From: Prevotella sp. MGM2
GTDB lineage: Bacteria > Bacteroidota > Bacteroidia > Bacteroidales > Bacteroidaceae
DNA: 64,000 nucleotides
Reading direction: 5' to 3'
NCBI RefSeq assembly: GCF_002933955.1
Contig: NZ_BEWW01000225.1
Span: forward strand, 1-64,000
Made by a program: the position numbers and the translations under genes. The notes under the pieces were generated by a model that did not search any database, had not been told where the DNA came from, and saw only the letters and a list, made by a program, of their open reading frames with translations. Positions 1 to 60,086 of the stretch are shown piece after piece. The stretch's first letter is position 1. Each line of letters begins with the position of its first letter.

Positions 1-42
1 AATATACAACATTTTTTGCCGGAAAGCAAGAAATGTTAAAAT
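1..42 (+). repeat. Dispersed intergenic repeat, copy F (truncated by window edge)
   Basis: This is the right-hand end of the same repeat found complete at 15237, 25689, 40718, 48674 and 59806. It starts inside the reverse-strand -7 box (AATATA at 1-6), keeps CAAG (reverse CTTG, the -33 position) at 27-30 with the same 20-base gap, and ends in TGTTAAAAT. It is closest to copy E, which shares ATATACAACATTTTTT and GCCG. The hairpin and the AATACTTGG units would lie outside the window. Confidence 0.75.
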
Positions 43-15236: not shown

Positions 15237-15500
15237 TTAACATTTTTAACGTTTTGATACATTCCTAATTGTTAAAATATAGGTTCCCGTTATTGCCAAG
15301 TAAAAAGTCTGTATTGGAATTTCAATTCGAATACTTGGATTTTAAATTGTAATACGGGGAATTGATGGCATAAATACGGGGAAAATCTGTTGGGAAAAGC
15401 CTTGAATATACAGAAAAAGCGGGACTTTACGATGGAAGGTTCCGCTTGGCTATTGCAAAAATACGATATTTTCTGTAAGAAAGCAAATTGTGTTAAAATG
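15237..15500 (+). repeat. Dispersed intergenic repeat, copy A
   Basis: Begins TTAACATTTTTAAC and ends TGTTAAAATG. AATACTTGG is at 15330-15338, flanked by related units (TATTGGAATTT before, AATACGGGG twice after). A hairpin AGCGGGAC...GTTCCGCT lies at 15419-15445; its U-tract on the minus strand is TTTTT. The minus-strand promoter has CAAAAATA (reverse TATTTTTG) at 15456-15463 and CAAA (reverse TTTG) at 15484-15487, 20 bases apart. This copy has the weakest hairpin (one mismatch). It lies between the accessory module and the end of the polysaccharide operon. Confidence 0.75.
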
Positions 15501-25688: not shown

Positions 25689-25935
25689 TTAACATATTTA
25701 ACTTTTCTAAAGGTTTGTAAATCATCAATAGGCTTCTTGGAGCACTTTATTTTCATAGAAATAGAACTTTGGGAAACTGTAATACTTGGAATTTGAAATC
25801 CAATACTTGGAATTTTTACGCGAATAAGGCTTTTTGAAAACTAAAAAGACAAAATAAGCCGTTCGAATCCGAACGGCTTATCATTCTCCTACAAAGATAA
25901 TATGTTGAAGAGGCAAAAGCAAGAAACGTTAAAAT
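25689..25935 (+). repeat. Dispersed intergenic repeat, copy B
   Basis: Begins TTAACATATTTAAC, then variable DNA, then two exact AATACTTGGAATTT units about 24 bases apart. The hairpin is ATAAGCCGTTCG (25854-25865) / CGAACGGCTTAT (25870-25881), 12 perfect pairs with an AATC loop; on the minus strand it is followed by TTTTGTCTTTTT. The minus-strand promoter consists of CAAAGATA (25892-25899, reverse TATCTTTG) and CAAG (25920-25923, reverse CTTG), 20 bases apart. Ends GTTAAAAT. The predicted transcript runs towards the polysaccharide operon. Confidence 0.8.
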
Positions 25936-39626: not shown

Positions 39627-40565
39627 ATGGATTATTTGTCATCATCTTCCCAACCTTGTTTGCTCGTTGTTTTTCGTTTGGCCATTGAGGAGAAGAAAGC
39701 AGAAAAAAAGTTTGGGACTGCCCGAAATTTTCAGCGTACGCTTAACAGTCTGACAAACTTTCTTGGAGATAAGGCAGAACTTCCGCTATCGCTTGTGAAT
39801 GAGGATTTTGTTGGAACCTATAATGCCTGGTTGTTACAACGGGGAGTGGCACGCAACAGCATTTCCTTTTACATGAGAGTGCTCCGTTCTATTTGTAACA
39901 AATTGTCTCGGCTATATGATTTTCAATGTACTCATTTGTTCCGTGACGTTTATACTGGAGTGGCTTCAACCCGTAAGCGTGCGGTGAATGAGAACATATT
40001 GCTGAAGCTGCAAGCATTGGAACTGCGCCCGAAGTCACATCTGGCTTTGTCGCGCGATGTTTTTATTTTCAGTTATTGTGCCCGTGGCATGGCTTTCGTT
40101 GATATTGCCTTCTTGCAGAAAAGTGACATTTCAGACGGTGTGCTTTGTTATGTCCGCCGTAAGACAGGACAGTACCTGACTGTACGCATAGAGCCTTGTA
40201 TGGCGCGCATCATTAAGAAATATGCAGCAGAAACGGCAGGAAGCCCCTATGTGTTCCCGTTTCTCAGAAGTCTCCATCCATCTGTGGCCTATAAACAATA
40301 TCAAACAGCTTTAGGGTATTATAACCGTGTTCTTAAGAAACTGACAGCCTGTTTAGGCCTCTTGCATCCTTTGAGTTCATACACCGCCCGCCATACTTGG
40401 GCCACTACTGCCCGTAATCACAATGTGCCGATTTCTGTTATCAGTGCGGGAATGGGGCATTCTTCCGAACGTACTACGCAGATTTATTTGGCATCGCTGG
40501 ATAATTCCGTGATAGATAAGGCTAACAGTATGTTACTTAAGTCATTGAACAGCTATGAAGGATAA
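39627..40565 (+). CDS. Tyrosine-type site-specific recombinase
   Basis: 312 residues. An N-terminal SAM-like core-binding domain (about 30-115, ARNFQRTLNSLTNFLGD) and a C-terminal catalytic domain. Candidate active-site residues: Arg in YCARGMAFVDIAFL, Lys in YVRRKTGQYL, Arg in SYTARHTWATTAR (the usual HxxR histidine is replaced by Ser), His in GMGHSSERTTQIYLASL and the Tyr nucleophile in the same segment. This is the Bacteroidota family that includes phase-variation invertases and element integrases. No other mobile-element genes are beside it. Repeat copy C begins 153 bases downstream. It could invert or integrate DNA elsewhere; no inverted-repeat pair that would mark an invertible segment was found nearby. 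Confidence 0.85.
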   Translation: MDYLSSSSQPCLLVVFRLAIEEKKAEKKFGTARNFQRTLNSLTNFLGDKAELPLSLVNEDFVGTYNAWLLQRGVARNSISFYMRVLRSICNKLSRLYDFQCTHLFRDVYTGVASTRKRAVNENILLKLQALELRPKSHLALSRDVFIFSYCARGMAFVDIAFLQKSDISDGVLCYVRRKTGQYLTVRIEPCMARIIKKYAAETAGSPYVFPFLRSLHPSVAYKQYQTALGYYNRVLKKLTACLGLLHPLSSYTARHTWATTARNHNVPISVISAGMGHSSERTTQIYLASLDNSVIDKANSMLLKSLNSYEG

Positions 40566-40717: not shown

Positions 40718-40978
40718 ATTTTAACACAATTTGCTTTTGGCTGTAAAATGTCGTATATTTGTAATAGCGGAGCGGGGATTTCTTATTGAAATCCCCGTTT
40801 TTATGTGTTTTTTAGGGCTATTTTTGTATGTTTTCGCTTTGTTTTTCTTGAAAATTTCCCGTATTGGAGTTTAAACTCGAAGTATTCCTGTTAAAATTTC
40901 AATAAGGTTTTTATAAATCCAATACTTCAAGTTAGGAAAACAGGTTGCAGAAACGTTTATGAAGGTTAAAAATGTTAA
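40718..40978 (-). repeat. Dispersed intergenic repeat, copy C (inverted relative to the others)
   Basis: The promoter reads on the plus strand: TTTG 40730-40733 and TATATTTG 40754-40761 with 20 bases between. Right after it is the hairpin CGGGGATTTC (40773-40782) / GAAATCCCCG (40788-40797), 10 perfect pairs with a TTATT loop, followed by TTTTTATG. The AATACTTCAAG and CCGTATTGG units follow at 40859-40932 and the copy ends GGTTAAAAATGTTAA (40964-40978). Transcription would run towards the flavoprotein gene at 41280. Confidence 0.8.
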
Positions 40979-48673: not shown

Positions 48674-48955
48674 TTAACATTTTTAACCTTTCGTTACATT
48701 TCGGAGGAGCTTTTTTGCCATATTTATATAGCTTTTCGAAACCGAAGCAAGAGTTGTTGGAAAAAGATTACTTGAAACTTTAATTCGAATACTTGGATTT
48801 AAAATTGCAATACGGGCTTTTTGCCAATATTCAGGTCAGTTTTTCATGAGTTTCTTCCTGATTTTGTCTAAAAAAGAGGACCGTCTTTTGAGACGGTCCT
48901 CTGCGCTGTTACAAATATACCACTTTTTGAGGTCGAAAGCAAATTGTGTTAAAAT
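48674..48955 (+). repeat. Dispersed intergenic repeat, copy D
   Basis: Begins TTAACATTTTTAACC. AATACTTGG follows at about 48791, then AATACGGGC. The hairpin AGAGGACCGTCT (48875-48886) / AGACGGTCCTCT (48891-48902) has 12 perfect pairs with a four-base loop and TTTTTT on the minus-strand side. The promoter is CAAATATA (48912-48919, reverse TATATTTG) and CAAA (48940-48943, reverse TTTG), 20 bases apart. Ends GTGTTAAAAT. The minus-strand transcript would run antisense into the 3' end of the helicase gene. Confidence 0.85.
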
Positions 48956-59805: not shown

Positions 59806-60086
59806 TTAACATATTTAACTTTCTGTTACAGTTGGTGTGTCATTATGAGTCGTAAAAAGTGATATTTTTAATAGATATAGGGTGGGGGAGGAAAAAAATA
59901 CTTGGAATTTCAAATGCAATACTTGGAATTTTTACGGCAATACGGACTTTTTATTCTATTTATATATATTGTATAGAGGCGATAAGCCTGTTATATAAAA
60001 GCGAAGCGTGCGATTCATTAATAATCGCACGCTTCGCTACTGCAAATATACAACATTTTTTAGCCGAATGCAAATAGTGTTAAAAT
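59806..60086 (+). repeat. Dispersed intergenic repeat, copy E
   Basis: Begins TTAACATATTTAAC. Two AATACTTGGAATTT units at about 59909 and 59930 are followed by AATACGGAC. The hairpin GCGAAGCGTGCGATT (60001-60015) / AATCGCACGCTTCGC (60023-60037) has 15 perfect pairs (16 with the flanking A-T) and is the longest stem in the family; on the minus strand it is followed by TTTTAT. The promoter is CAAATATA (60043-60050, reverse TATATTTG) and CAAA (60071-60074, reverse TTTG), 20 bases apart. Ends GTGTTAAAAT. Transcription would run towards the glycine-cleavage operon. Confidence 0.85.

Follow-up and report, generated by a model that had tools for sequence, protein, structure and literature searches.

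The promoter-into-hairpin arrangement that an earlier note had described in a 64,000-nucleotide stretch of Prevotella sp. MGM2 DNA (the window, part of contig C225) is real, and it is larger than first noted: the five units in the window each form the left end of an element of about 262 bp that is discrete, non-coding and dispersed through the genome, a larger whole that the note had overlooked. With moderate confidence, we interpret the element as private, high-copy and MITE-like, with a micro-transcription unit that works in cis, likeliest for the element itself.

In all five complete window copies, the -33 and -7 boxes were separated by exactly 20 bases, as the earlier note had said, and its layout of copy D, with both boxes, the 20-base gap, the stem-loop and the T-run on the minus strand, was recovered in full (Table 1). 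The pair TTTG/TAnnTTTG is described as the Bacteroides promoter consensus (PMC7366714). Starts were predicted by placing the -7 box at -12 to -5, the position described for the sigma-A box in a flavobacterium (PMC9723704), and the resulting positions (15451, 25887, 40766, 48907 and 60038) differ by 1-2 nt from those proposed before. Each unit would give rise to a hairpin RNA of about 40 nt; in the window the predicted RNAs measure 37-42 nt, with the stem setting in 0-5 nt past the predicted start in all five copies. The hairpin of copy D folds at -21.6 kcal/mol (z -5.8) and is second in the list of 32 terminator-like sites within its 20 kb. Four of the five window hairpins lie between -19.6 and -27.7 kcal/mol; that of copy A (start 15451) is weak (-7.4 kcal/mol, z -1.4). 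What had been proposed as minute RNAs has held up at the level of DNA, promoter and terminator both being kept in most copies examined and the terminator being preserved by compensatory base changes, while the RNA itself is a prediction.

Table 1. Copies of the element in the window and the parts of copy D
Feature	Position	Strand	Remark
Copy D, whole element	48674..48954	-	281 bp; long form, extended by one unit of about 20 bp; from the 67-copy alignment
Copy D, ends	left TTTTAACA at 48954; right GTTAAAAATGTTAA at 48674-48687	-	
-33 TTTG box, copy D	48940..48943	-	sequence; 20-nt spacer in 86/86 copies
-7 TATATTTG box, copy D	48912..48919	-	sequence; consensus of 67 copies
Predicted 38-nt RNA, copy D	48870..48907	-	start from the -7 box rule, end at the T-run
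Terminator stem-loop, copy D	48875..48902	-	12-bp stem, 4-nt loop; covariation, 84 copies
T-run, copy D	48874-48870	-	directly after the stem-loop
21-bp-phased site array, copy D	48767..48821	-	GTAT cores at 48813 and 48792; degenerate third near 48771
Right-end motif GTTAAANATGTTAA, copy D	48674..48687	-	144 exact copies genome-wide, control 2
Copy A, whole element	15237..15498	-	262 bp; predicted RNA 15451-15414, weak hairpin
25.9-kb copy, short form	25689..25934	-	246 bp; predicted RNA 25887-25851; CTTG at -33
40.7-kb copy, whole element	40719..40978	+	260 bp; predicted RNA 40766-40802
Copy E, long form	59806..60085	-	280 bp; predicted RNA 60038-59997
Sixth copy, left end only	1..41	-	contig end cuts inside the -7 box

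A tyrosine recombinase gene (Phage_int_SAM_5, Phage_integrase; window 39627-40565) stops some 150 bp short of the copy at 40719. At gathering thresholds, no Rfam family matched the window.

Across the draft genome of this gut-type member of the Bacteroidales (2.88 Mb in 329 contigs, 94% complete), the left-end pattern yielded 151 matches at up to three mismatches, 66 and 85 by strand, compared with none for the reversed control; 146 of them need at most two mismatches and 69 are exact. The right-end motif was similarly frequent, with 144 exact matches and 2 for its control. From TTTTAACA to GTTAAANATGTTAA, 67 full copies align with sharp ends, and their flanks are 26-29% identical, as expected by chance. 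Reading from the left, the element consists of TTTTAACA, TTTGC, a 20-bp spacer, TATnTTTG, a predicted start at AGC and the terminator hairpin, followed by a variable stretch, a 21-bp-phased GTAT/ATAC array, a second variable stretch and the right end, so that about 160 bp of partly conserved DNA lie downstream of the micro-unit. The array sites (CC..GTATT/AATAC..GG) are flanked by AATTTAAATT-like tracts, and the commonest distances between them in 72 copies are 21, 41, 20 and 62. The promoter spacer measured 20 nt in every one of the 86 copies found in a scan of the loaded DNA that allowed 11-25 nt.

Length is almost as uniform. Among 70 two-ended copies, 61 measured 258-264 bp, seven 280-283 bp and two 246-247 bp; 68 are thus about 262 bp long or one array unit of about 20 bp longer. 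Beyond these 70, two copies (C85-21137 and C170-2685) lack the right end. The element holds no conserved ORF: among 40 copies of length 262, a frame open over 120 nt was shared by 27 at most, and entropy by position modulo 3 over positions 85-250 (0.80, 0.99 and 0.86 bits) differed mildly. Gene contexts were drawn from 62 copies, the alignment from 67 and the spacing from 159 known places, in each case a sample of the matches listed, with exact left-end matches taken first and copies at many contig ends cut. Breaks in the draft assembly often fall within the element, for example at both ends of C261 and C94 and at base 1 of C225, and as a result near-identical copies are probably under-counted. 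In the second variable stretch, at consensus positions of about 208-229, about half of the aligned copies carry a block with another TTTTAACA; the block differs in the remaining copies, like a swapped module. Just outside both ends, base composition by eye alternates between GC-rich and AT-rich with a step of about 10 bp, as if a bend were preferred for insertion or function.

Sequence divergence among the copies is substantial and unevenly distributed. They are 64% identical on average, with 66 sites in each differing from the consensus and few indels besides whole units; 61 of 263 sites are conserved at 95% or more and 109 fall under 70%. Full copies are about 75% identical on average to their nearest neighbour, indicating that many copies are old. 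Between nearest neighbours, promoter and end sites are 96% identical and the sites elsewhere 73%, a comparison in which picking copies by left-end similarity could inflate promoter conservation. Two results speak against such a bias. Of the 151 left-end matches, 146 lie within two mismatches; and among 20 right-end matches with about 300 bases upstream, mostly chosen for having no listed left end, 16 keep the promoter, one has a degenerate promoter and three consist of the right end only. Decayed copies exist but are a minority; one of them, C85-21137, has lost the T-run along with the right end.

The 13 pairs of the terminator hairpin were standard in 94.2% of cells over 84 copies, and compensatory changes had altered 11 of the 13 on both sides, a result reached in 0 of 500 shuffles. 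Double-changed cells numbered 83 as compared with 18 after shuffling, and slid controls were far lower. As the hairpin is the only stacked Watson-Crick run among the top 60 covarying column pairs, the rest of the element looks like DNA sites. Within those 60 pairs, CCGTATT...ATACGG and other inverted repeats yielded no stacked pairs that would point to RNA structure beyond the terminator, and a few isolated column pairs outside the hairpin look paired.

The element was compared with known classes of mobile DNA. Like a MITE, it is short (about 262 bp), non-coding, with no conserved ORF, and dispersed (151 left ends). Its putative inverted ends are short (TTTTAACA... and ...TGTTAAAg): by eye on the consensus only TTTAACA/TGTTAAA is exact, and TTTTAACA could instead be an upstream part of the promoter. 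Target-site duplications were no commoner than in shuffled flanks, tested with 62 and with 65 copies at narrow and wide offsets, though old copies could have lost them; because this test failed, we do not file the element as a MITE. No autonomous relative was seen by eye among the left ends examined with 450 bases behind them, of which only C170 and C85-21137 lack a right end, neither running into a transposase. The Y1 transposase (PF01797) is absent from this 94%-complete genome; 5 of 14 control genomes were positive. Copies at contig ends include pairs that are 100% identical over 190 bp and 99% identical over 107 bp, and mosaic copies occur, such as C289/C309 with 97 identical bases; together, the near-identical pairs and the mosaics indicate that copying or conversion happened recently. 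Insertion into upstream terminators was considered and rejected, since the folding of left flanks barely beats that of shuffled ones (-6.2 versus -4.7 and -5.9 versus -5.0 kcal/mol). The element also differs from a mobile promoter, as its predicted promoter reads inward to the terminator and appears to ignore gene orientation.

Gene contexts and gene starts were taken from a rough home-made gene caller. Among 62 copies with usable flanks, 59 were clear of predicted ORFs and three touched one. Relative to the element, both neighbours run in the same direction in 20 cases and both in the opposite direction in 15; 13 copies lie between divergent and nine between convergent genes, and for five the upstream neighbour is unknown. 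The orientation of flanking genes looks random.

Neighbouring copies, in turn, are more evenly spaced than chance. With three right-end-only relics removed by hand, as in the first spacing count, the 59 gaps had a minimum of 3.92 kb, a median of 8.25 kb, a mean of 10.0 kb and a standard deviation of 5.3 kb; with the relics kept, 61 gaps had a median of 8.2 kb and two fell below 3.9 kb (2.3 and 3.3 kb). On contigs of at least 25 kb, none of 32 gaps was shorter than 3.9 kb when a decayed right-end relic was dropped (8.0 expected, P about 1e-4), and one of 33 when it was kept (8.6 expected, P 2.5e-4). In the simulation behind these values, elements were assigned to one site per kb along 14 contigs, and copies beyond the matches listed can hide some short gaps. 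Mutual orientation was even, with 30 neighbouring copies in the same and 29 in the opposite direction, and strand bias was weak (mean GC skew +0.021, positive in 58 of 93 cases).

Searches in other genomes recovered no further copy. The left end at up to two mismatches was found in none of 60 relatives (36 congeners and 24 order-mates), and full-length blast against 398 other genomes of the family returned matches of at most 41 bp in 19 of them and none in the rest. Exact patterns gave no hit in GTDB contigs or in IMG/VR viral contigs, and blastn gave none in phages or plasmids; the pattern used for GTDB recovers 66 of 93 of the genome's own copies, and all of these collections may omit close neighbours of this genome. 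This genome has 147 matches to a generic promoter pattern, versus 3-60 in each of 119 relatives. Visual inspection of the region downstream of a helicase gene at eight loci in congeners, one of them stopping about 0.2 kb beyond that gene, revealed no orthologous element. The best named matches of one housekeeping protein, in uncultured Prevotella and Prevotellaceae MAGs, reached 72-73% identity, indicating that no close relative is named. A search of the literature found no such element, which does not prove its absence from print.

A loose promoter pattern matched 30 viral contigs, none of them with the right end; in two (L303 and L318) a fold below -9 kcal/mol forms within 45 nt, but the T-run is missing and they were rejected as relatives, and one viral iteron match looks like chance. 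In a congener, G030, a different promoter repeat, about 75 bp long (TTGC...CTCGCCTTTCACTATCTTTGCA type; loci L245-L251), is dispersed upstream of genes. It lacks such a terminator behind it and resembles a mobile-promoter family. In G276, from another genus, GTTAAATATGTTAA occurs twice (L145, L163, L164), with a promoter-like box about 55 bp downstream of it in L145.

In the interpretation that we favour, with the moderate confidence given above, RNA polymerase would load at the left end, transcribe about 40 nt and be released at the terminator, making each copy a polymerase-binding and DNA-melting site that emits a tiny hairpin RNA; a protein may bind the phased array and the element ends. 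The unit would serve the element's own mobilisation or upkeep, the terminator would keep the element silent towards its neighbours, and the even spacing would be a transposition-immunity effect. As avoidance of harm explains only the terminator, we infer that the promoter must be useful in place. Against this interpretation stand the lack of target-site duplications, the lack of an autonomous relative among the left ends examined, the absence of a Y1 transposase, the lack of a close relative that could show an empty site, and the existence of decayed copies. Moreover, a purely selfish element would not keep old copies working, so that the old copies favour a function for the host. Such a function, which we rank below a role for the element itself yet regard as possible, would be domesticated chromosome punctuation: an ancient burst would have left copies that the host now keeps as local insulators or domain marks, about one per 10 kb within contigs. 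Constraint on old resident copies, a length locked save for whole units of about 20 bp, and over-even spacing with no clear link to gene orientation all fit this idea; the lack of an orientation pattern between neighbouring copies, the weak strand bias and the near-identical recent pairs do not, and absence from 36 congeners means that the element is not generally needed. Rather doubtful, in our view, is the fuller proposal of a punctuation mark in which a start-stop unit of about 40 bp stands beside the 21-bp-phased array, rarely less than 4 kb from the next and about 10 kb on average within contigs, and in which pinned RNA polymerase and an array-binding protein would divide the chromosome regularly in one lineage only.

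The remaining explanations place the function in the RNA or in the adjacent gene, or deny a unit altogether. A large paralogous family of small RNAs acting in trans, like FopS, is improbable: judged from sequence, many mostly intergenic copies with their own promoter and terminator and a kept structure would suit it, but the stem of the window copies, which sets in 0-5 nt behind the predicted 5' end, leaves no room for a single-stranded seed, and stem sequence varies between copies. Rfam, in which FopS is reportedly deposited (PMC11697453), also gave no match for the window. A role in trans would leave the downstream 160 bp, the fixed length and the spacing unexplained, and dosage would presumably select weakly on any one of 150 copies. 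The suggestion in the earlier note that the hairpin gates read-through into a downstream gene found no support, and we regard such an attenuator as very unlikely. A promoter followed by an early terminator is indeed attenuator anatomy, and 36 of 62 copies are followed by a gene in the same orientation; however, 36 against 26 in the opposite direction is close to even, nine copies lie between convergent genes, 15, copy D included, are antisense to both neighbours, and there is no conserved ORF inside the element. Coincidence of ordinary promoters with ordinary gene terminators, to which some left flanks with a hairpin of their own, possibly the terminator of the upstream gene (for example at 15498), had lent some plausibility, deserves practically no weight: it is refuted by the genome-wide copies, with 151 matches against none in the control, sharp common ends, covariation and the excess of the generic promoter pattern over relatives. 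Taken together, the unit does not serve genes in general as a leader, and as a seed-type sRNA it is implausible.

Promoter-carrying interspersed repeats are known in bacteria, and those compared here act on their neighbours. With REPIN/RAYT systems the element shares its nature as a private, high-copy population of intergenic sequences, but REPINs consist of shorter palindrome pairs that a Y1 transposase moves, and Y1_Tnp was not found in this genome. The BrickBuilt MITE of Porphyromonas gingivalis, as described in PMC4596501, likewise belongs to the Bacteroidales, is known from one species, and gains or loses whole internal repeat units of about two helical turns; it is always intergenic and has short inverted ends, as the element here may have. 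Promoter activity and transcripts are described for BrickBuilt (PMC4596501), where the element here has a predicted promoter. In contrast to the roughly 150 copies with 21-bp units found here, BrickBuilt has 19 copies in one strain with 23-nt head-to-tail repeats, and its promoters are reported as bidirectional, in leader and tail (PMC4596501), whereas here one promoter faces inward over a fixed spacer with a covarying terminator ahead. Correia repeat enclosed elements of Neisseria are small repeated elements too; they have inverted repeats and promoters, and are described as carrying a site for a protein, IHF, as well as a hairpin-type RNA that RNase III targets (PMC2649163). Promoters of the Neisseria elements originate at the ends, from where they act on neighbours (PMC2649163); the promoter here points inward, with a terminator within about 40 nt. 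FopS of B. thetaiotaomicron resembles the element in its paralogous short units, canonical sigma promoter, intrinsic terminator and restriction to a clade, in its case the Bacteroidaceae, and differs in having 14 copies of about 65-70 nt with a conserved single-stranded 5' seed (PMC11697453). Of these FopS-type features, the element has, by sequence, its own promoter and intrinsic terminator and, counted from the predicted start, no 5' seed: the window copies have an unpaired 5' stretch of 0-5 nt, stems vary and 160 bp follow.

Overall, selection seems to maintain, in place, a complete start-and-stop unit of about 40 bp in around 150 copies in this genome. If the units are transcribed, roughly 100 or more consensus promoters would each produce a very short independent primary transcript, and the promoters of the element may act as a sink for RNA polymerase. 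Finally, with their even spacing and fixed length the copies make either transposition immunity or a domain role directly testable.
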